A stretch of DNA of 44,273 nucleotides from a virus, in IMG/VR virus record IMGVR_UViG_3300024265_000102, positions 1-44,273 of that record. One strand, 5' to 3'. Below, in pieces: positions 9,131-44,273 of this stretch. Made by a program: the position numbers and the translations under genes. Position 1 is the stretch's first letter, and every line of letters starts with the position of its first letter. The notes under the pieces were generated by a model. The model saw only the letters and a program-made list of their open reading frames with translations. It was not told the origin of the DNA and made no database searches.

Positions 9131-9535
9131 ATGCAAAATCAACCTTTAACAATAGATCAGCTCAGAGGCCTCATCAGTAAGGGTGAAGCTAAAGATCCTC
9201 TGATATTTCTAGAAGCCATTATGAACGGGCAAGATCCCCGTAGACTTTCTAGTATCTACGAATTAATATGTGAGGTAGATAGTTTTAATGACGGTGATAT
9301 TTGCCGTAGTGATTGGGTTGAAATTGTAGACCACGTTATAGCTAGGTTCAAATACCACCCTGTCTCAATTGGTGATTCCACGGCTGCGGCCAAAACCCTC
9401 GCTGAATACTTACACCCAAAGCGCAAACATATTGAGCTAGGGGGGAATGTTTCTAACGAGGCTGATCCTAATGCGAACCCGTTAACTGAAGAAGAAATAG
9501 ACTTATTTAAAGAGAAATTCAACGATGAGTTCTGA
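9131..9535 (+). CDS. terS: Probable terminase small subunit
   Basis: The protein has 134 residues. The call rests mainly on position directly before the large terminase gene, with an 11-base overlap, and on size. The middle has helical segments (SSIYELICEVD, SDWVEIVDHVIARFKYH) and the sequence AAAKTLAEYLHPKRKHIEL. That ending resembles the KLLEYLYPKRK-type segment of phage DNA-binding small terminases, from memory. It would recognise the packaging site and recruit TerL. There is no good Shine-Dalgarno before the ATG. Confidence 0.65.
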   Translation: MQNQPLTIDQLRGLISKGEAKDPLIFLEAIMNGQDPRRLSSIYELICEVDSFNDGDICRSDWVEIVDHVIARFKYHPVSIGDSTAAAKTLAEYLHPKRKHIELGGNVSNEADPNANPLTEEEIDLFKEKFNDEF

Positions 9536-10382
9536 TCTACTCATACCGAATTCTTGGTCATACAATGAAAAGCGTATGTTGAAATACATGCTAGAAAAAG
9601 ACGGCATGCAGTTCATGAGGTACTTCTTTAAGATTAGAGAAGATTCCAAAATGATCTGCAACTGGCACCACTACGTTATTGAATATGTTTTACAAGCCGT
9701 GTATGATCTCAAAGTAACTCGCCTCATCATCAATATAGCTCCAGGATATACTAAGACCGAACAAGCGGTTCTCAATTTTATATGTAGAGGGTTAGCCCTT
9801 AACCCTGCATCCAAATATATCCATACCTCATATGCCGGTAGATTGGTGAATACCAATTCAGCTAAGATTAGACAGACAATCAAGTCTAACGAATTCCAAG
9901 AACTCTGGCCAATGAAGATACGAGTCGATGCCGATGCCAAGGGTGAATGGTACACCGAGAAAGGCGGCGGCATGTTAGCGGCTGCGGCTGGTGGCCAGAT
10001 AACAGGGTTCAGAGCAGGTAGAATGGATGAGGGGATATTCACCGGGGCATTTGTAAACGATGACCCTGTTAAGCCTAAAGATGCTTATTCCCAAGTTAAA
10101 AGGTCAGCCATTAATAGCGATTTTAACAACACCATGCGGTCTAGGTTAGCGATAGAATCTGTACCAATGGTTAATATCATGCAAAGAATACATGAAGATG
10201 ACCTCAGCGGGTATCTACTTAGAGGGGGTTCTGGTGATAAATGGCACCACCTCGTTATCCCTACACGGTTATCAGAAGAAGCGTTGTCCGCGCCTTACCC
10301 TGAAGATCATACCCACGGGATACCCATAGATATAAACGGTATCCTAACAGCTATGCACACGGGTCAGGCTTATGCTTTTTAG
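9525..10382 (+). CDS. terL: Terminase large subunit, ATPase part (gene split)
   Basis: The frame has 285 residues. Walker A-like NIAPGYTKTE lies at about 70-79 and Walker B FVNDDPVKPKDAYS at about 175, as in TerL motors. The frame ends at TAG 10380-10382 just after a T5 run (10376-10380). Removing one T joins it to the following frame (AYAF-SVDALTRIPQ), giving about 530 residues, the usual size of this TerL group. The ATPase drives DNA into the prohead. The split is an assembly error, a genuine two-gene arrangement, or a +1 frameshift of the prfB type (UUU before a UAG stop). Confidence 0.9.
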   Translation: MSSDLLIPNSWSYNEKRMLKYMLEKDGMQFMRYFFKIREDSKMICNWHHYVIEYVLQAVYDLKVTRLIINIAPGYTKTEQAVLNFICRGLALNPASKYIHTSYAGRLVNTNSAKIRQTIKSNEFQELWPMKIRVDADAKGEWYTEKGGGMLAAAAGGQITGFRAGRMDEGIFTGAFVNDDPVKPKDAYSQVKRSAINSDFNNTMRSRLAIESVPMVNIMQRIHEDDLSGYLLRGGSGDKWHHLVIPTRLSEEALSAPYPEDHTHGIPIDINGILTAMHTGQAYAF

Positions 10383-11118
10383 TGTAGATGCCCTTACCCG
10401 TATACCCCAAAAAGTAATCCCAGGTACGCCTCTTTGGGCGTTTAAACACACCCTTGAACAATTATCTGTTATTGAAAACGGAGACCCATATACATACTCT
10501 AGCCAGTATCAGCAACACCCTAGCCCTCTTGGCGGAGGTATGTTTAAAGATAAGTACTGGAAGTACTATGACACGTTACCACCTGACATTGATCTAATCA
10601 GGATATATGGGGACACCGCCCAAAAGATTAAAGAACAAAACGATTATTCAGTGTTCCAATGTTGGGCTAGGTCTCGCAGTATGGGTATCTTCTTACTCGG
10701 CCAATGTCGAGGCAAGTGGGAAGCCCCTGAATTAGAATCCAAACTTGTAGAATTCTGGAACAAATATAAGCCCTCCCTCCGTAGACCTTTAGGGGCACAA
10801 GTTGTTAAGATAGAGGATAAAAGTTCAGGATCAAGTTTAATACAATCTATTAAGAAAGATTATATGATCCCTATTGAAGGGATACAAAGGAACACCGATA
10901 AGGTCTTCCGGGCTATGGGGGTTGTTAAGTATTTTGCAAGCGGGTATATCCATTTGCCCCGTGATGCTGATTATGTACACGACTACAAAGAAGAATTCAG
11001 AAAGTTTACACCGCTAAATACTCACAAACATGATGACCAAATCGACCCCACGATGGATGCGGTTGAAGATTTAATTGTGTTTGAAGATATGATGTATAAT
11101 AATAACGCTTTAAAATAA
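10372..11118 (+). CDS. terL: Terminase large subunit, nuclease part (gene split)
   Basis: The frame has 248 residues from ATG 10372, overlapping the ATPase part by 11 bases in the +1 frame. It contains the linker segment PYTYSSQYQQHPSPLGGGMF and then the RNase H-like nuclease motifs YGDTAQ, IEDKSSG and HKHDDQIDPTMDA. These acidic residues cut concatemeric DNA at the start and end of packaging. There is only a weak AGG before its ATG, which favours the view that it is normally translated as a continuation of the upstream frame. Confidence 0.9.
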   Translation: MLFSVDALTRIPQKVIPGTPLWAFKHTLEQLSVIENGDPYTYSSQYQQHPSPLGGGMFKDKYWKYYDTLPPDIDLIRIYGDTAQKIKEQNDYSVFQCWARSRSMGIFLLGQCRGKWEAPELESKLVEFWNKYKPSLRRPLGAQVVKIEDKSSGSSLIQSIKKDYMIPIEGIQRNTDKVFRAMGVVKYFASGYIHLPRDADYVHDYKEEFRKFTPLNTHKHDDQIDPTMDAVEDLIVFEDMMYNNNALK

Positions 11119-33736: not shown

Positions 33737-35611
33737 CTAAAGCAATTTTGTGTAACCTATTTCCTTTAAGAATTTATAAGTTTCGGCTATATACCAATCA
33801 TAGTCTATATCGCTTGGGAGTGTATTTGGTAAGTCCATTATGGGTTTAGCCCCGTCAGACCTGGGGACTTTGTTGCCGCTAGTTTTATAATACATAGCAT
33901 CTAATTCGTGCTTTCCATAATACCATCTGACCGCCTTACCGACTAACCCCCCTTCGTACAATGCCCCGCCATTAACAGTCCTGATTGTTACAAATTTCCT
34001 TATATCTGTGCATTCTTTTATGGTGTCTTCTATGGATTTGTTTTTACTCAGGAACAATTTAACAGCTTCGGTACATATCAGATTAACTGGGTTTTTTCTT
34101 AACTTATAATAATGTTCAGATTGATCAGCATAAGCCCCTTTACCCTTAATTTCCCCATTACTTTTAACAGCTATATAATTATTAACATCACGACTGTACA
34201 GGCCTGAGTAATCTGAGTAATCCATTTTATATTCAGTTTCAAATTCCCAATCTTCTACTATTTCTTCAACCATAGATAATTGGTTAGGTAGCATCTTAAC
34301 CACAATACCATCGGTGTTACCACTCACCACACTAACCCCCGCTAATTCTAGGCGTTCAATTAGCATGAATAGCGTTAACTGCCCGGTTATCGTAACTTGC
34401 ATCATCATGTCAGGTGAGAATAAGAATGACCACTTACTAGCTAGTTTTCCAAAAGTACCGTTGATAGTAATTTTTAGACTTTCATTTACTGGCTTATTCC
34501 CTGTTCTTTTGGCTTCTAATCGCCTATTAACTATGTGTTCATAGATTGTTAAAAAGGGCTTGCCAAGATGTTTAGGGGCTAATTTATTATTCAGAATTAT
34601 GCGAGGGTAATAACTTTCCACATCGATTTCTTTCAATAAATATTTACCAGCTACGTGAGCCGTTTTCTTTTCAGCACTGTGTAATCCACCCATGCCAATC
34701 TTATAAGGTGTATCACCTATCTTAAATGTCTTGTTAGCCAAAGGATGAGGGATTTCAATCTGCTTACCTTTTTTATTCAGTATGAAATTACCCTCATCGT
34801 CTTTTTGATACTTACCTGTCCTTATTTCCATATGACCCCCTTTACCTACTATAAAGGGTTCAGTCTTAAACAGGTGTAGTATCTCCTGCATTTGTTCGGT
34901 TTGGAATGAGATGTTACTTGGTGCTTTAAACTTAAAACGTGTTCCCGGTTCAATCTTAGTTCGTTTTGGATTGATGCCGTATGTCTCGTTCATTTCGTGC
35001 TTTATTACTGCTTCCGCAATTTGTGAATCTGACTTAGACCTAACATCTACACTATATTCTTTAGACATTACAATTCTCAGGTCTAGTTCTTTTTCAAGAA
35101 CTTTTAATAACAGAATAGTTACATCTAGATCGTTCTCACAATAATACCTCATTTCCAATAAATCTGATTCCAATATTGTAGCATAGGGGTCTATAGGTAA
35201 GTCTTTCATTTTAGGGGAATGGATACGACCACCATAAATCTTAAGAGAGGCACCGAGAGGGGCTACTTCTATTAAATCAATATGATTTAATTCTAGAGCA
35301 GCTACCCCCATCTGCTTCCTAACCTCCCAGGGTTGCTTCCTTTCGTCAATTAGCATTTTACTAGCTTTGTGTATAGACGCATTGCTAAGCCCGGCTATAG
35401 CCACTTCCAGGATAGTCTTGTCATACTTATTACCATTAAACGTGACTATGGTGTACTTGTTTAAAATATGGAGGATGTTGGTTCGGTTTAATGTAGAATC
35501 ATTGAATTTTTCAAAATACAGTATTTCACCTGAAGTTACCTTCTTAAACATAATTAATAGGTAGTTCTCATAACATTCTATATCGCATGCTAATAGGTTA
35601 TTGTGATCCAT
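33737..35611 (-). CDS. Family-B DNA polymerase with 3'-5' exonuclease
   Basis: The protein has 624 residues. The exonuclease domain begins LLACDIECYENYLL (Exo I Asp10/Glu12), has TIVTFNGNKYDK (Exo II) and MRYYCENDLDVTILL (Exo III). Polymerase motif A is IDVESYYPRII (about 328-338), motif B SLKITINGTFGKL (about 379), motif C NTDGIVV (about 431). It replicates the phage genome. It closes the modification-linked operon, 3 bases after the DUF3310 gene; a polymerase that accepts modified dNTPs would fit, which is an inference. Confidence 0.92.
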   Translation of the reverse strand: MDHNNLLACDIECYENYLLIMFKKVTSGEILYFEKFNDSTLNRTNILHILNKYTIVTFNGNKYDKTILEVAIAGLSNASIHKASKMLIDERKQPWEVRKQMGVAALELNHIDLIEVAPLGASLKIYGGRIHSPKMKDLPIDPYATILESDLLEMRYYCENDLDVTILLLKVLEKELDLRIVMSKEYSVDVRSKSDSQIAEAVIKHEMNETYGINPKRTKIEPGTRFKFKAPSNISFQTEQMQEILHLFKTEPFIVGKGGHMEIRTGKYQKDDEGNFILNKKGKQIEIPHPLANKTFKIGDTPYKIGMGGLHSAEKKTAHVAGKYLLKEIDVESYYPRIILNNKLAPKHLGKPFLTIYEHIVNRRLEAKRTGNKPVNESLKITINGTFGKLASKWSFLFSPDMMMQVTITGQLTLFMLIERLELAGVSVVSGNTDGIVVKMLPNQLSMVEEIVEDWEFETEYKMDYSDYSGLYSRDVNNYIAVKSNGEIKGKGAYADQSEHYYKLRKNPVNLICTEAVKLFLSKNKSIEDTIKECTDIRKFVTIRTVNGGALYEGGLVGKAVRWYYGKHELDAMYYKTSGNKVPRSDGAKPIMDLPNTLPSDIDYDWYIAETYKFLKEIGYTKLL

Positions 35612-35614
35612 GAT

Positions 35615-35989
35615 CTACCCTTGATCTACATATGCAGGTGTTGCCCCACATTCAATTTCTGAAATCAATTGTGACAACATCCCAATAGCGAGATAGTGTT
35701 GGCCTAAACATATGTTGTAAATGATAGTTTTTGAACTATCCGGTAAGTCGGACACCAATCTAACTACTGGCCCCATAGGCATGTGGGGATTGATACCTTT
35801 ATCTTTAGCTTTGGAAATAAAATGTATAGCTTTTCTTAAATCTTCCACTCCGTTTTTATGTTCATACCTCACAACATATTTAGTTGCACACGCTAATAAA
35901 TAATGTAAATTAGTATCACATACCATGTCCCAATGTTGGTAATCGCCTTTATAATGGTCTCCCCCTATCTGTACAGTATTAGGTTCCAT
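35615..35989 (-). CDS. DUF3310 protein (T7 gp1.7-like nucleotide kinase relative)
   Basis: The protein has 124 residues. GGDHYKGDYQHWDMVCDTNL and YLLACATKYVVRYEHKNGVE match DUF3310; T7 gp1.7, a member, is a dTMP/dGMP kinase by published work. The location between the HD hydrolase and polymerase genes suggests a role in dNMP phosphorylation, possibly of a modified nucleotide. The start shares its base with the upstream stop (TAATG). Confidence 0.75.
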   Translation of the reverse strand: MEPNTVQIGGDHYKGDYQHWDMVCDTNLHYLLACATKYVVRYEHKNGVEDLRKAIHFISKAKDKGINPHMPMGPVVRLVSDLPDSSKTIIYNICLGQHYLAIGMLSQLISEIECGATPAYVDQG

Positions 35990-36510
35990 TACAGTTTACC
36001 CTCTGATGCAAAATAATTCAATATTTGATTCACGCCCGTGACTTCAGTATTCGTATCGACAAATAAATCATTGGCATAAGAAACTACAGTTGCTAGAACA
36101 TGTTTCAGATTAGAGTTACCCATAGCCAATTCATCTAAGGCATAAAACCCTAGCTCAAGTAGATCAGAAGCCTTAGCTATCCAGGTTTCATTCGGTTCTA
36201 ATTTAGGAATGTCAGGTAAGAAGGTACGTTCCCAATCCTTTTCAGCTGCTGCAAGAGCACCTTTAACCGCCGGGAATTCCTTCTTAACATAAGCAGGTGT
36301 ATCCCCAACATAACCCTCCGCTACGTCGTGTAATAGCATGTATCGGATAACGTTAGCACTGTCTATATTGTTGTCTGTACATAGTTGATGGGCGATTAAG
36401 GCCGCATTAGCACTATGTAACCCATTACTATATGGGATAATATGGGGAACTGTATGTAAGCGTTCGACGTTTAAACCTTTACGTATTGTCTTTAGTTTTG
36501 AAATATCCAT
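35989..36510 (-). CDS. HD-domain nucleotide phosphohydrolase (YfbR-like)
   Basis: The protein has 173 residues. His32 (NGLHSAN), His61-Asp62 (LLHDVAEGYVGDTP) and Asp116 (KASDLLEL) form the HD metal site, as in 5'-deoxynucleotidase YfbR. It may remove competing dNMPs such as dTMP. GGAG is present and the start is TAATG-coupled to the upstream thymidylate-synthase-like gene. Confidence 0.85.
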   Translation of the reverse strand: MDISKLKTIRKGLNVERLHTVPHIIPYSNGLHSANAALIAHQLCTDNNIDSANVIRYMLLHDVAEGYVGDTPAYVKKEFPAVKGALAAAEKDWERTFLPDIPKLEPNETWIAKASDLLELGFYALDELAMGNSNLKHVLATVVSYANDLFVDTNTEVTGVNQILNYFASEGKL

Positions 36511-37571
36511 TATTTATTCTCCAAATTTGTAATTCTGTTTTCCAACCAACCGTTACAGGCTATCCGCCAATCATCAGATTTAATCTGTTTTGTCCAATCC
36601 AACGCGGATGGTGGTCCGTTCTGTTTGTGGACCAAATATACACATAACATCGGTATTATCAGTTCTTTAAAATAGTTAGACTTCCAACATTTTATTTCCC
36701 CGATTTCATGTAACCCAAACTTATCGTAAGTATAGAAAAACAGACTAAGGTCGTATTTGAAATCATCCATGTTAGACTCTGACATGCGCACAATGTTGTT
36801 CACGTCATTATATGGGTTGCGGTTGTCCTCGTAATTAGCCAGCAATTTACCCCAAAGATCACCTCCTGGGCCGTCGATATATACATGGAATGCATTACTG
36901 ACATGGGTATACGTGCCCATAGGAATACCGATACATGCCGCAACATATTCCTGAATCATGCTAAATTGCACTACATTAGCTCCGTATGCCCCCCAAAGCA
37001 TATCGTTAGACCGGTTGTACACCGTTATGTCTAAGCGACCATTTCGGACACGGAATACAATGGACATGTTACATGCTTTATCTTTAGTGTTTATTTCGGG
37101 GGCTAAGTCTTTTGCATCCCATATTTGTGCCACTGCTTGACGACTGTTTGGGTCATCTCGTAACATGTTAATAATAACTTTTAACTGGTCTAATGTCTTT
37201 TCCCCATAATAAATACTAGGGAAGTGGTTACTTAACCGATGACCATAAGGGGCGTTAAATGTCACCCCATCATCGCTGTAATCCCCCATCCGTTTGTTGA
37301 ACTCAGTTAGGAATTTAACATCATCGCGACCAGCTAAAATCCACATGGACTCCATTAAGTGAAAGAAAGGATTAGCGTCACGAACTTTGCTCATTAACAC
37401 GCGGTGTAGTGGGTTATGGAAAATAGTAGTTACGGGGCACGGTATTTCAAAAGTGTCTCCGTTACGACTCTCAATTCTAACCCCTCTAGATATTATTTCC
37501 TCAATACCTACACTTAACGCATGGTTGACATTGTCTGCATCTATTATTAACATTTTATTTACCTGTTCCAT
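36510..37571 (-). CDS. Thymidylate synthase-fold enzyme, possible dUMP hydroxymethylase
   Basis: The protein has 353 residues; ATG 37553 with AGG upstream is an alternative start. SRQAV (143-147), nucleophile Cys167 in ACNMS, NRSND (186-190) and GANVVQFSMIQEYVA (Asn199) place it in the ThyA superfamily. The usual PCH is ACN and QRS is NRS, as in phage hydroxymethylase-like members. Asn199 fits a uracil rather than cytosine substrate. The product may be dTMP or 5-hydroxymethyl-dUMP; the flanking modification genes favour the latter. Superfamily certain, reaction inferred. Confidence 0.85.
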   Translation of the reverse strand: MEQVNKMLIIDADNVNHALSVGIEEIISRGVRIESRNGDTFEIPCPVTTIFHNPLHRVLMSKVRDANPFFHLMESMWILAGRDDVKFLTEFNKRMGDYSDDGVTFNAPYGHRLSNHFPSIYYGEKTLDQLKVIINMLRDDPNSRQAVAQIWDAKDLAPEINTKDKACNMSIVFRVRNGRLDITVYNRSNDMLWGAYGANVVQFSMIQEYVAACIGIPMGTYTHVSNAFHVYIDGPGGDLWGKLLANYEDNRNPYNDVNNIVRMSESNMDDFKYDLSLFFYTYDKFGLHEIGEIKCWKSNYFKELIIPMLCVYLVHKQNGPPSALDWTKQIKSDDWRIACNGWLENRITNLENK

Positions 37572-38421
37572 TATATTTTTGCCTAAGAAACCCTTTCTGG
37601 GTCTTCACCCGCTGGTACTTATCAAACTCACAAAGAGAGTGTTCTATATCCCTCATTTCAAGCTTAGGGAATGTGTCCGGTAGATAGAACTCAGCTTCTT
37701 GTAGTAATTGTTGCGTCTCTCTATTACTTTGTAAAGGTTTTAATTTCTTTTGTAACGGTCTTTTAAAGATTCTATTCAGCCCTCTCATCGCCCCTGGCCC
37801 AACATTAGCCCAAGTATAAATATCTGAGGCTCTTGTAAACTGTCTGGTGTGGCGCATATCTGTGACAATTTCGTAAGCTATGAAATCACTATACCCCACA
37901 TGACCATTAGCAAATAACTTATGAGCTTGTTCCAAAGTTTGTAGGGATTCCAATTTGGCGGTTATTTCGTGCCGTTTTTCCCAAAGAGGTTCTAATATAT
38001 TGTAACAAAGATCTTCGTTCTTAGGGACAGAACGGCCACCTGTAGTTAACATATACGCACTACTGTAATTTTTAAGCCCTGATGATTTACGGCGTTCCAA
38101 GATGTCAAAAACAGCTTCGGTATCCCAATCAAGTAAGTACTCACTAATATCGGACAGAGTGCTAGGTAGATTAATTCGCCTAGCTACACAAAACGCAAAC
38201 CATAAATAAGGGTTATCTGGATGACCCTCTCTTATATTTTCTTTAATCCAAATAGTGGTGGTGTCCAATTCTCTGAACACATTACAAAACCTATATGATT
38301 GGAGTATGGGGTCTTGTGTCCATGGCTTAGGTTGTCCCGCCTGCTTATGCAGATAAATAGCGTGACGTTCTGTCATCCAATAGAATAAGGTGTTTACCTC
38401 ATCTTCATTATAATCCTGCAT
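37555..38421 (-). CDS. Alpha-glutamyl/putrescinyl thymine pyrophosphorylase family (5-hmdU kinase helical domain)
   Basis: The protein has 288 residues. The sequence SYRFCNVFRELDTTTIWIKE (about 42-61), NPYLWFAFCVARRINLPSTL, a GGRS segment, TWANVGPGAMRGLNR (about 204-217, helix-hairpin-helix-like) and MRDIEHSLCEFDKYQRV match the helical family named from predicted thymine hypermodification systems. No P-loop is seen, so it is not itself the kinase. It probably acts on 5-hydroxymethyl-uracil in DNA. It overlaps its neighbours by 14 and 17 bases. Confidence 0.8.
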   Translation of the reverse strand: MQDYNEDEVNTLFYWMTERHAIYLHKQAGQPKPWTQDPILQSYRFCNVFRELDTTTIWIKENIREGHPDNPYLWFAFCVARRINLPSTLSDISEYLLDWDTEAVFDILERRKSSGLKNYSSAYMLTTGGRSVPKNEDLCYNILEPLWEKRHEITAKLESLQTLEQAHKLFANGHVGYSDFIAYEIVTDMRHTRQFTRASDIYTWANVGPGAMRGLNRIFKRPLQKKLKPLQSNRETQQLLQEAEFYLPDTFPKLEMRDIEHSLCEFDKYQRVKTQKGFLRQKYNGTGK

Positions 38422-39133
38422 TAGCTAAGCCCCATTGGTAAGCTTTCTTCCATTGGACTATCATCCCCAAATTAGTTATATGTCGCTGATGCTTACCTCC
38501 TTCTTTTTCTCTTAATTTTACAAATGACGGGTGTAATTTCTTAAGTTTAAACATGGCTTCTCGTATATGTTTACTATTTCGTAAATATTCAAGTCCACCT
38601 TTACCGTTACTCCCATCTGTCACACACCAATCTGATGTAAATTTACCCCTAACGCCATGTTCATACATACTCAACGCAACATGCCAATCTTCACACAAGG
38701 GTATGTCATCAAACCTTATATTGTTGTCATCCATGAATTTTAAACAGATTCCGTAAATCATAGACGGTGCAGAATTATAATAGACACTTGGTTTTGTATT
38801 AGCCATAAATCTATTTGAAACTCCTACATATTTATCTCCTGAATCTAGCCATGATTGGAGCTTTTTGAATAGAACTAATATATCTGCGCTGTTAGCGGGC
38901 ACATGGTTATTATCTAAATCTCGAACGCCAAACACTAAGTCATCGTCTAGCATTATTATATTTTCATGCCCGTCAAATAAATACTCATCTATATATTGTT
39001 GTCGCATCCACCCTATGTTATATCCATTTTTAGGCATATGATGACGAACAATGTCTGTTATATCTAGTAATTCATCAGGAAAATGGGCTATAGAGGTAAC
39101 GATCTCTCTATTACTTGGAATTACTATTTTCAT
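38408..39133 (-). CDS. GT-A glycosyltransferase, TET/JBP-associated type, paralogue 1
   Basis: The protein has 241 residues. MKIVIPSNRE opens a GT-A fold; MLDDDL (Asp63-65) is the metal/nucleotide-sugar motif. LCEDWHVALSMYEHGVRG and the C-terminal MIVQWKKAYQWG are shared with the next gene. The N-terminal region is shorter than in paralogue 2. It would transfer a sugar to a hydroxymethylated base in phage DNA. Donor sugar and base cannot be told from sequence. Confidence 0.75.
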   Translation of the reverse strand: MKIVIPSNREIVTSIAHFPDELLDITDIVRHHMPKNGYNIGWMRQQYIDEYLFDGHENIIMLDDDLVFGVRDLDNNHVPANSADILVLFKKLQSWLDSGDKYVGVSNRFMANTKPSVYYNSAPSMIYGICLKFMDDNNIRFDDIPLCEDWHVALSMYEHGVRGKFTSDWCVTDGSNGKGGLEYLRNSKHIREAMFKLKKLHPSFVKLREKEGGKHQRHITNLGMIVQWKKAYQWGLANAGL

Positions 39134-39923
39134 TTTTAATACCCCATTCGTAAGCCTTCTTCCATTGCACCCTTACATCTGTTCGGGTCTGCATCCCTTT
39201 CCAACCTGTCTTATTGGTTTTTTCCACCACGGTTACAAAATCAGGATAATCGAATTCTAATTGTTCAGCGCATTCTTTTTGCAATTCAGGGGTCCGGTAA
39301 GTACTACACCCTCCTTCAGCACCGGAACCTAATTGGTTCCAGCAATATCCGTACAAAACACGATTGGGGATCCCTTGCGTTAATAATGATAATACTAAAT
39401 GGAAGTCTTCCATCAAGGTAATACTATTAAATTTAAGATTTAATTTCCGAAATGGGGGGATATGGATACCATGGAAATTCATTTGGCGGGTAGCCTCTTT
39501 ATAAAATTCAGACGTATGATTATTCCCCTGCCTAGCACTTACCCCAACCAGCGGATAACCATCAGTATCCATCCAACTTAATAAAAGGGAAAACATGTTA
39601 TATTGATTATCATCGCTACATTTATCGAGTTTAACTGAACCTTCTTGCCGTTTAAAAAAGGCTAGATCATCATCTAACATAAACAAATATTCAGTTTTGC
39701 AAACGTCAATGCAATGTTGGCGCTTATTAGCGATACCCTTAATAGTGTTTGGTAATGAATAAACTTTACATTTATTACCATATTCCATGTAGTGATCAAA
39801 CCATTCATCCGGCTCAACAACGATTATGGTACGTTCCAGCAATTTAGGAGCAAGCTGAGATAATGTTTTCTGATTATGTAATCTCCCTTTAGTTGGGATT
39901 ATTATTGTGATGGCATTGAACAT
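39111..39923 (-). CDS. GT-A glycosyltransferase, TET/JBP-associated type, paralogue 2
   Basis: The protein has 270 residues. ITIIIPTKGRLHNQKTLSQL, NKRQHCIDVCKTEYLFMLDDDL (DDD at 84-86), VGVSARQGNNHTS, LMEDFHLVLSLLTQGIPNRV and EGGCSTYRTPELQKECAEQL are typical of the TAGT family as I recall it. The C-terminus VRVQWKKAYEWG matches paralogue 1. It is fuller-length than paralogue 1. The two overlap by 23 bases and may act in sequence, each adding a sugar. Confidence 0.8.
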   Translation of the reverse strand: MFNAITIIIPTKGRLHNQKTLSQLAPKLLERTIIVVEPDEWFDHYMEYGNKCKVYSLPNTIKGIANKRQHCIDVCKTEYLFMLDDDLAFFKRQEGSVKLDKCSDDNQYNMFSLLLSWMDTDGYPLVGVSARQGNNHTSEFYKEATRQMNFHGIHIPPFRKLNLKFNSITLMEDFHLVLSLLTQGIPNRVLYGYCWNQLGSGAEGGCSTYRTPELQKECAEQLEFDYPDFVTVVEKTNKTGWKGMQTRTDVRVQWKKAYEWGIKNENSNSK

Positions 39924-40149
39924 TACCCTTCCCCTCGATAAAATATTTACGTTTACCAGATAACCATTCGAAAATAGAAGGTCGCTTCCATTTACCTGAT
40001 ATTTTTACGGCATGAGTAACGGAACTTTTACTGCAATGACCGCAAAATCTACAGACCCCCCCCCACGAACTCATCTTACCCGCAAAACTTTCAGTTATCC
40101 TATTTGTCGGGCAGACCAATTCCGCTGAAAACTCTTTGTCTAATTCCAT
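39889..40149 (-). CDS. Small Cys-rich protein with a G9 run
   Basis: The protein has 86 residues. The start is TAATG-coupled to the upstream gene. VCRFCGHCSKSS (about residues 32-43), with an earlier Cys13 and a later QCHH, suggests a zinc site. KMSSWGGVCRF is encoded by nine consecutive G (40064-40056 on the minus strand), prone to slippage. It overlaps glycosyltransferase 2 by 35 bases, the longest overlap in this operon. Function unknown. Confidence 0.55.
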   Translation of the reverse strand: MELDKEFSAELVCPTNRITESFAGKMSSWGGVCRFCGHCSKSSVTHAVKISGKWKRPSIFEWLSGKRKYFIEGKGNVQCHHNNNPN

Positions 40150-40787
40150 TACAGTCCCTCCTCAATATAACCTTCGTTGAATGCGCCGCGTATGTATCCC
40201 AGTGCGTATTTTTCATCAATGGTGGCGGTTGATTTCTTAGGTTCGTAATTGTTAATAAACTCTTCAACCAGTTCTTCTAACGATGCTTCACCTAAGTTCC
40301 CGTTAATAAACTCAGTTATAACAGCCATAGCAGAACCCGTACGGGGGCTCTTAGGGGTGTTGTTAAAAGACATACCTATCAGATCCTTAGCACGTATGCG
40401 TTTTGGCTTAGACGTAGGCTTGGTGGTACTGTTTTTAGGGCTTGCTGGGGCCTGTTTTTCAGGCTTATCTGCCGATTTTAATAGCTTCTTACCTAGTGCT
40501 TTAGTAAAGGTAGGGATGTGTTCTTGGTGTTCCTCCAAGATATCCCAAAGTACCTTAGCACCATCATCTTCTGATTTGAATTGGTAATCTCTAGGGTATC
40601 CGTGGTTAAGATTATTGAAAATACCTTTCATCTCTTCCAACGACAATTCTAAAAGCAATTCATCTTCATTACTTACTAGGGTTATCGCTAAGGACAAATC
40701 GTTATCTATCACATATGAGGCGAGCAAATCGCCATCCTCACTTTTAGACTCTACCCTACGAGTATCAAAATCTATAGCATAAAACAT
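40149..40787 (-). CDS. Hypothetical protein, tandem paralogue A
   Basis: The protein has 212 residues. The N-terminal 100 residues are alpha/beta, with DFDTRRVESKSEDGDLLASY. A Lys/Pro/Thr-rich linker follows (about 115-140). The C-terminal domain AMAVITEFINGNLGEASLEE and ATIDEKYALGYIRGAFNEGY is shared with paralogue B just upstream. It resembles a small winged-helix domain, perhaps regulatory. The GAGGAATAAACAATG context gives a good start. Confidence 0.6.
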   Translation of the reverse strand: MFYAIDFDTRRVESKSEDGDLLASYVIDNDLSLAITLVSNEDELLLELSLEEMKGIFNNLNHGYPRDYQFKSEDDGAKVLWDILEEHQEHIPTFTKALGKKLLKSADKPEKQAPASPKNSTTKPTSKPKRIRAKDLIGMSFNNTPKSPRTGSAMAVITEFINGNLGEASLEELVEEFINNYEPKKSTATIDEKYALGYIRGAFNEGYIEEGL

Positions 40788-43945: not shown

Positions 43946-44273
43946 TCACCATTTATTCCCGGTATAGTGAATGGGTCTAGGCATACCGCCGCCGCTGCTG
44001 CTGCTGCTGCTCAAGAACGCATCGTGGTTTTTATCTCTGCGGTCTCGTTGTTCTTGGGTCGGCGCGGGTATTAACGAGAAATAATTCTTAATTATTTCAA
44101 ATTGTGGCTCGGGACAGCTGACTTCAACACGATCATCGTAATCATCGTGCCACACCCCATACCCCCTACCTCGGTTGTGGAAATCGTGGTCAGGTAATCC
44201 TAACGCCTTGATCAACCTTACGAAATTGTGGACATGGTCACTATCGTAGTATTCCAGGAGATAAGCATTATAA
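43946..44273 (-). CDS. Membrane-anchored small protein, C-terminal part (gene crosses the junction)
   Basis: The frame enters from base 17 of the left end (equivalent to 44148) and stops at 43946, completing the 146-residue protein that starts at ATG 255. In this half it reads LGLPDHDFHNRGRGYGVW, DRVEVSCPEPQFEIIKNYFS and ends with a Ser6-Gly3 run from a (CTG/CCG) trinucleotide tract. No complete gene is visible without joining the ends. Family unknown. Confidence 0.75.
   Translation of the reverse strand, partial: YNAYLLEYYDSDHVHNFVRLIKALGLPDHDFHNRGRGYGVWHDDYDDRVEVSCPEPQFEIIKNYFSLIPAPTQEQRDRRDKNHDAFLSSSSSSGGGMPRPIHYTGNKW
44148..44273 (+). repeat. Right copy of the 126-bp terminal direct repeat
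   Basis: This segment is identical to bases 17-142. It indicates end redundancy of a circular or permuted genome assembly. Confidence 0.9.

Follow-up and report, generated by a model that had tools for sequence, protein, structure and literature searches.

At the HMUDK_hel loci surveyed, a recognizable partner gene is either a kinase or a glycosyltransferase and never both, and among close relatives one type of glycosyltransferase stands in the slot of another; this partner exclusivity and slot replacement are new here. The window analyzed (positions 1 to 44,273 of IMG/VR virus record IMGVR_UViG_3300024265_000102; 44,273 nt) carries the glycosyltransferase form as a compact cassette on the minus strand. 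We think it probable that this cassette directs a thymine hypermodification ending in glycosylation, in which 5-hydroxymethyl-dU (5-hmdU) would be made at the nucleotide level, polymerized, and then glycosylated in DNA. A 126-nt exact repeat at its ends closes the record on itself, and it is probably a complete phage genome. Megablast of the window's first 20 kb returned no closely related phage.

Cassette layout and gene assignments

The cassette is read from 39,923 to 35,615 in the order TAGT1, TAGT2, HMUDK_hel, a ThyA-fold dUMP hydroxymethylase, a YfbR-like HD protein, and a DUF3310 protein, with successive overlaps of 23, 14, 17, 1, and 1 nt. Proteins were assigned by Pfam and PHROGs profile searches (Table 1). 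These searches and the open frames, all at the noted place, bore out the overlapping six-gene run described in the initial annotation, and the families it expected (TAGT, HMUDK_hel, Thymidylat_synt, HD, and DUF3310) were found, the polymerase being assigned through PHROGs. The run had also been described as ending at a family-B polymerase (PolB); this gene does follow, 3 nt past DUF3310, but just outside 35615–39923. Because relatives show the same gene order again, the cassette is not a chance assembly. Upstream of TAGT1, the C-terminal domain of a companion ORF was found again before a transferase or HMUDK_hel gene at ~20 related loci.

Table 1. Features of the cassette and adjoining genes in the window
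Feature	Position	Strand	Evidence
Upstream companion ORF	40149..40787	-	no Pfam/PHROGs match; iterated HMM search
Small cysteine-rich ORF, overlaps TAGT1	39889..40149	-	no Pfam/PHROGs match
TAGT1, GT-A DNA glycosyltransferase (predicted)	39111..39923	-	TAGT PF20691 E 1e-18; phrog_842 E 2e-52
TAGT2, divergent second GT-A, same family	38408..39133	-	phrog_842 E 3e-18; Pfam TAGT 25.0 bits
HMUDK_hel protein	37555..38421	-	PF18723 E 3e-51
dUMP 5-hydroxymethylase, thymidylate synthase fold (predicted)	36510..37571	-	Thymidylat_synt E 1e-22
YfbR-like HD 5'-deoxynucleotidase	35989..36510	-	PF12917 E 4e-10; HD + downstream Asp present
DUF3310 protein	35615..35989	-	PF11753 E 2e-7; phrog_236 'nucleotide kinase' E 2e-11
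Family-B DNA polymerase, downstream of cassette	33737..35611	-	phrog_1252 E 2e-186

TAGT1 scored 68.5 bits against PF20691 (curated cut-off 27.5), with the GT-A DxD motif present and D84-D85-D86, E172-D173, G204-G205, and W254-K255 conserved. TAGT2 fell below this Pfam cut-off and retains the DDD, ED, GG, and WK motifs. The ACN/NRSND residues noted earlier in the ThyA-fold enzyme were read correctly, and catalytic Cys167, Arg187, Asp190, and Asn199 are all present. Its best solved relative in the PDB is a CMP 5-hydroxymethylase (E 2e-25; thymidylate synthases 2e-12), and its base-specificity position, Asn199, is of the uracil type rather than the cytosine-type Asp; 93/97 related enzymes have this Asn. 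Together, the PDB match and Asn199 favor a hydroxymethylase over an ordinary thymidylate synthase.

The same residue bears on the idea that the cassette serves 5-hydroxymethyl-cytosine (5-hmC) glycosylation of the T-even type, which we regard as improbable. The best-known TAGTs come from T-even phages and use glucosyl-hmC as substrate (PMC13216743); the beta-glucosyl-HMC-alpha-glucosyltransferase of T6 combines PF20691 with a GT-A fold, as do the window TAGTs, and the hydroxymethylase of Brevibacterium phage LuckyBarnes is annotated as a dCMP-hydroxymethylase (PMC6588365). However, the T6 enzyme is a second transferase on glucosylated 5-hmC, whereas the window hydroxymethylase is of the uracil type, and LuckyBarnes likewise has Asn, not Asp. 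The window hydroxymethylase is related to those of the M6/YuA group, and the DNA of M6 has thymidine-derived bases. A cytosine route was rejected on the Asn at the specificity position.

Neither the TET/JBP dioxygenase family (Tet_JBP), the P-loop 5-hmdU DNA kinase (PF18748), nor the amino acid:DNA transferase ADDT (PF18724) had a match anywhere in the record, and no T4-type alpha-GT or beta-GT occurs among the cassette genes. Genome-wide, only two ORFs carry a Walker-A motif, that of the primase and another located in the plus-strand structural region. A hidden kinase was rejected, HMM, Pfam, and Walker-A scans of the window all being negative, in agreement with the earlier remark that no kinase P-loop is visible. 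A TET/JBP route to hydroxymethylation was rejected as well. Since a dUMP-type hydroxymethylase is present and Tet_JBP absent, hydroxymethylation is best placed at the nucleotide level; and because TET/JBP, 5-hmdU DNA kinase, and ADDT are all missing, glycosylation is the sole visible end step. Both points, and the reading of the run as a thymine (5-hydroxymethyl-uracil) modification cassette, had been proposed in the initial annotation and are supported. Its pyrophosphorylase-family label names the right family, "aGPT-PPlase clade 1" being an older annotation name for HMUDK_hel, but ADDT does not accompany it.

Comparison with known systems and the partners of HMUDK_hel

M6/YuA-type cassettes (5-hmdU DNA kinase plus ADDT), as in Pseudomonas phages M6 and MP1412 and Stenotrophomonas phage Sonora, share with the window the dUMP hydroxymethylase (38% identity to MP1412), HMUDK_hel (41–46%), HD, DUF3310, and a location adjoining the polymerase. 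In contrast, the window has two TAGTs instead of a P-loop kinase and ADDT, neither PLP nor radical SAM enzymes were found in it, and its polymerase is PolB rather than PolA. The cultured phage LuckyBarnes resembles the window in its Asn hydroxymethylase, two adjacent TAGTs, and HMUDK_hel, with no kinase in its whole record; it differs in having PolA, no adjoining HD or DUF3310, the gene order ThyA-TAGT-TAGT-HMUDK_hel, and an HMUDK_hel only 24% identical. We found no report of its DNA base in the accessible papers. According to the accessible text on HTVC023P-type pelagiphages, a thymidylate synthase, aG/PT-PPlase1, a 5'-deoxynucleotidase, and a putative glucosyltransferase lie near the polymerase (PMC9599517); aG/PT-PPlase1 is HMUDK_hel, as in the window, but the polymerase is PolA. 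That text interprets these cassettes as M6-like hypermodification and does not remark on the replacement of a kinase by a glycosyltransferase (PMC9599517). The gene set is thus not unique, occurring in LuckyBarnes, in these pelagiphages as far as the same text describes them, and frequently in IMG/VR, and the suggestion that the combination was new is not supported in that form.

Among 96 HMUDK_hel loci with a recognizable partner, 30 had a P-loop kinase, 48 a TAGT, 16 a GT-B glycosyltransferase, and two both TAGT and GT-B, and a kinase co-occurred with any glycosyltransferase in none (0/96). ADDT was present in 22/30 kinase loci versus 0/66 glycosyltransferase loci. In whole records, PF18748 was absent from the glycosyltransferase type (0/22), and TAGT from the GT-B or kinase types (0/16). 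The HMUDK_hel tree required at least 18 changes of partner class, or nine when scored as kinase versus glycosyltransferase only, and independent pairs on its supported branches differed in 6/6 cases (sign test, p 0.031). In the window's nearest kin (L004–L006), a single GT-B enzyme (Glycos_transf_1) occupies the slot of the TAGT pair. These patterns suggest a DNA-armouring system with interchangeable parts, in which the attaching enzyme is swapped and HMUDK_hel is kept.

Thymidylate synthase, HD, and DUF3310 genes are common phage nucleotide genes, and glycosyltransferases may target the host surface, so the cassette might be read as a chance grouping of genes for ordinary nucleotide metabolism and for glycosylation of the cell surface. 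We consider this very improbable: TAGT is a DNA-glycosyltransferase family, the closest PDB relative of the ThyA-fold enzyme is a hydroxymethylase, and a hydroxymethylase-type ThyA lies nearby in 66/66 glycosyltransferase-type HMUDK_hel loci.

The role of HMUDK_hel

Across 61 relatives, 21 residues of HMUDK_hel are invariant, polar ones including R19, R50, D53, K134, D188, D200, E265, D267, and K268. The AlphaFold2 model (pLDDT 96; four GenBank-derived rows left out of the input) had a DNA glycosylase as its best PDB matches in Foldseek (probability 0.92–0.98, E 0.1–0.4). In all, the models of two distant members ranked HhH DNA glycosylases first, at E 0.1–0.5, below significance per match, and TM mostly <0.5. 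PDB sequence searches with single sequence and profile gave no match, and hhalign against HhH-GPD glycosylases of nine genomes was not significant, a weak negative in that a few of the 24 frames were on the wrong strand. In a viral library, HMUDK_hel matched the SP10 5-hmdU DNA kinase, which contains this domain (E 3e-9). A bacterial-genome scan for the family returned 11 loci only, and as all were in MAGs, no host name was obtained.

HMUDK_hel, we infer, acts as a reader or flipper of hydroxymethyl bases for interchangeable transferases. It seems unlikely, though less so than the readings weighed above, that the TAGTs alone glycosylate 5-hydroxymethyl-uracil and HMUDK_hel is a separate enzyme, for example for a further base-modifying step. 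The many invariant polar residues, the six further loci that lacked a recognized partner, and MW202897, whose TAGT, hydroxymethylase, HD, and DUF3310 cassette lacks HMUDK_hel, would agree with such an enzyme; MW202897 also indicates that HMUDK_hel is not always needed. Yet a shared substrate handler fits better, because the domain belongs to 5-hmdU DNA kinases such as SP10 and its partner swaps among three unrelated transferase types. HMUDK_hel is not strictly bound to uracil either, since a side clade (L021, L022, L024, and L027) pairs it and TAGT with an Asp (cytosine-type) hydroxymethylase.

Proposed pathway and implications

In the glycosylated-thymidine pathway that we favor, the ThyA-fold enzyme would convert dUMP to 5-hydroxymethyl-dUMP. 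Clearing of competing dTMP would fall to the HD phosphatase, whose predicted effect is a smaller dTMP pool, and phosphorylation of 5-hydroxymethyl-dUMP may be aided by DUF3310, a possible nucleotide kinase for hmdUMP similar to T7 gp1.7. The polymerase would insert 5-hydroxymethyl-dU in place of T, partly or wholly. HMUDK_hel, DNA-glycosylase-like and with no transferase of its own, would then recognize or flip the hydroxymethyl base and hand it to TAGT1, the predicted transferase of a first sugar onto 5-hydroxymethyl-uracil. For TAGT2, the prediction is transfer of a second sugar, or action at other sites or in another context; it could also be inactive. In relatives, the same HMUDK_hel slot would serve either a GT-B glycosyltransferase or a P-loop kinase whose step leads into ADDT chemistry. 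More tentatively, HMUDK_hel may derive from a DNA glycosylase and, catalytically repurposed, serve as a platform that flips 5-hydroxymethyl pyrimidines in DNA for interchangeable P-loop kinase, GT-A, and GT-B partners, such that a one-gene swap alters the genome's chemical armour; the two-sugar thymidine version would be the one in the window.

If this holds, a large class of phages, marine ones included, has glycosylated thymidine derived from 5-hydroxymethyl-dU, unlike the amino-alkyl thymidines of M6 and ViI. The kinase-associated HMUDK_hel domain would gain a testable job, and the cassette enzymes would be new tools for labeling 5-hydroxymethyl-uracil in DNA. As LuckyBarnes is a cultured phage with the cassette, a direct test is feasible. 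Partner exchange would also account for quick changes of DNA chemistry in phages under restriction pressure.

Cassette layout and the fate of the hydroxyl

An exact 126-nt repeat lies at both ends of the 44,273-base record, so that its two ends join up and the genome is probably complete. Bases 1-16, which fall outside this repeat and start a 26-nt inverted repeat, are probably a fold-back assembly artefact. The large terminase consists of two overlapping ORFs, one corresponding to the ATPase part and the other to the nuclease part. Successive genes of the six-gene cassette overlap by 23, 14, 17, 1, and 1 nt; the PolB gene (family-B DNA polymerase) starts 3 nt past the sixth. Pfam and PHROGs profiles named them, in order, TAGT (GT-A DNA glycosyltransferases), TAGT (weak match in Pfam, clear in PHROGs), HMUDK_hel, Thymidylat_synt, YfbR-like HD, DUF3310, and DNA polymerase, in agreement with the gene list of the initial annotation. 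Its name "alpha-glutamyl/putrescinyl thymine pyrophosphorylase" is an older label for Pfam's HMUDK_hel family, and the amino-acid:DNA transferase family (ADDT) is absent from the record.

Coordinates of features in the window
Feature	Position (nt)	Strand
End repeat, left copy	17-142	
End repeat, right copy	44,148-44,273	
Inverted repeat, partner arm	42-67	
Large terminase	9525-11118	
Six-gene cassette	35,615-39,923	-
Hydroxymethylase	36510-37571	-
HMUDK_hel	37555-38421	-
TAGT2	38408-39133	-
TAGT1	39111-39923	-
Companion protein	40149-40787	

The ThyA-like protein retains the catalytic residues Cys167, Arg187, and Asp190. At the specificity position of the ThyA fold, Asn denotes uracil and Asp cytosine (thymidylate synthase and T4 dCMP hydroxymethylase, respectively), and the window protein carries Asn199. 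Its closest solved structure was a CMP 5-hydroxymethylase (E 2e-25; true thymidylate synthases, 2e-12), and its phage relatives include Pseudomonas phage MP1412, whose protein is annotated as thymidylate synthase/deoxyuridylate hydroxymethyltransferase. Judged from sequence, it is a putative dUMP hydroxymethylase. Since Tet_JBP had no match across the record, the hydroxyl group would already be in place when the nucleotide is polymerised, consistent with the initial proposal of nucleotide-level hydroxymethylation without a TET/JBP oxygenase. A dCTP deaminase lies between DUF3310 and PolB in L004, L005, L006, and L035 (collected loci with an HMUDK_hel gene) and is missing from the window; the dUMP source therefore differs.

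In the M6/ViI route, 5-hydroxymethyl-dU (5-hmdU) in DNA is phosphorylated and amino groups are then transferred (PMC6449724). By contrast, the window encodes two TAGTs, and neither the P-loop 5-hmdU DNA kinase nor ADDT was found in the record. The only small Walker-A proteins are a primase and one plus-strand ORF in the structural region, in agreement with the earlier remark that no kinase P-loop was visible. TAGT1 scored well above the Pfam cut-off. TAGT2 is highly divergent (25.0 bits; end branch of 4.1 changes per column) and is assumed to be active because it retains DDD, ED, GG, Arg, and a C-terminal Trp-Lys. A TAGT family member of T6 adds a second glucose onto glucosyl-hmC (PMC13216743); by analogy, TAGT1 and TAGT2 together may build a two-sugar chain.

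The gene combination, initially suggested as one that could define a new glycosylated thymidine, has precedents: the cultured Brevibacterium phage LuckyBarnes likewise has ThyA, two TAGTs, and HMUDK_hel, and a pelagiphage study describes TS, aG/PT-PPlase1, 5'-deoxynucleotidase, and a putative glucosyltransferase, interpreted as M6-like hypermodification (PMC9599517). Solitary TAGTs in 288 of 753 phage genomes were flagged as potentially novel transferases in a 2026 study (PMC13216743). We found no statement in the open-access literature of a glycosyltransferase replacing the kinase beside HMUDK_hel. The new parts are this exchangeable-transferase pattern and the possibly glycosylase-like fold of HMUDK_hel.

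Transferase exchange beside HMUDK_hel

Partners were typed with iterated HMMs on same-strand genes within 6 kb of HMUDK_hel in 106 loci from GenBank phages and IMG/VR. These loci were chosen by similarity to the window, and their counts are not frequencies in nature: the partner was kinase alone in 30, TAGT alone in 48, and GT-B alone in 16 (the GT-B groups seeded from L010 and L015 are defined by HMM similarity among loci, with weak or no Pfam support). TAGT and GT-B were both present in two loci, six had no partner seen, and four were too short for typing. Kinase co-occurred with a glycosyltransferase in none of the 96 loci with a recognised partner (same strand, within 6 kb). Whole-record searches found no kinase in 22 glycosyltransferase-type records and no TAGT in 16 GT-B or kinase records. 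ADDT was present in 22/30 kinase loci versus 0/66 glycosyltransferase loci, and a small Walker-A ORF near HMUDK_hel in 28/30 versus 3/66. Among these three is L021, where a P-loop kinase-like ORF immediately precedes HMUDK_hel; it may be an exception to exclusivity. An HMUDK_hel tree (quick method) required at least 18 partner-class changes, nine when scoring kinase versus glycosyltransferase alone, and a sign test on phylogenetically independent pairs from supported branches gave P = 0.031, all six going in opposite directions.

The cleanest case of partner swapping is that between the window and L004-L006, whose HMUDK_hel proteins are 62-67% identical to the window's. Their flanks match (two upstream companions, HMUDK_hel, hydroxymethylase, HD, and DUF3310, followed by dCTP deaminase and PolB), and the slot of the TAGT pair is taken by a single GT-B protein of 415-419 aa (E 1e-7 and 4e-9 to Glycos_transf_1). 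In this slot, unrelated glycosyltransferase folds have replaced one another with nearly all surroundings kept.

About 20 related loci (the window, L004, L005, L006, L009, L010, L015, L020, L026, L038, L083, L096, L101, L104, L108, L110, L113) encode, upstream of the transferase gene or of HMUDK_hel, a companion protein that has a basic linker and whose conserved C-terminal domain ends in GYI(K/E); the window copy had no match in Pfam or PHROGs. A SPASM radical SAM enzyme (~300-350 aa), possibly tailoring the sugar or base, occurs in glycosyltransferase-type loci (L010, L038, L088, L094, L099, L102, L106, L113) and in none of the kinase-type loci. One HMUDK_hel clade (L097, L103, L105, L109, L111) has no hydroxymethylase or transferase nearby; several of its genes come from very large contigs, the largest 463 kb, and a nucleoside-hydrolase-like ORF is immediately upstream of HMUDK_hel in L111.

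Fold and proposed role of HMUDK_hel

The AlphaFold2 model of the window's HMUDK_hel (alignment of 61 relatives) reached pLDDT 96, and its four top PDB matches were all M. jannaschii 8-oxoguanine DNA glycosylase (probability 0.92-0.98, TM 0.34-0.51, E 0.10-0.38, not significant singly). The model of a distant, kinase-type relative (L026, 30% identical, pLDDT 89) likewise ranked DNA glycosylases highest, namely AlkA, MjOgg, AGOG, and OGG1, then NTHL1 and Tm1821, with single E-values likewise not significant. Profile-profile comparison of HMUDK_hel with real glycosylases was negative. Chance is hard to credit for two rankings of predicted structures led by one base-flipping superfamily, although the two models share an alignment and so are not fully independent. 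Matches in a viral library were other HMUDK_hel proteins, the 637-aa SP10 5-hmdU DNA kinase, and an ADDT protein. HMUDK_hel would flip 5-hmdU out of the helix and serve kinases and glycosyltransferases alike, a proposed role that fits the fold, fusion, and partner swapping jointly.

In L021, L022, L024, and L027, HMUDK_hel and TAGT are paired with an Asp-type (cytosine) hydroxymethylase, with PCT and Asp in place of PCN and Asn, which suggests a hydroxymethyl-cytosine version of the cassette. This side clade would carry the HMUDK_hel partner rule over to hydroxymethyl-cytosine.
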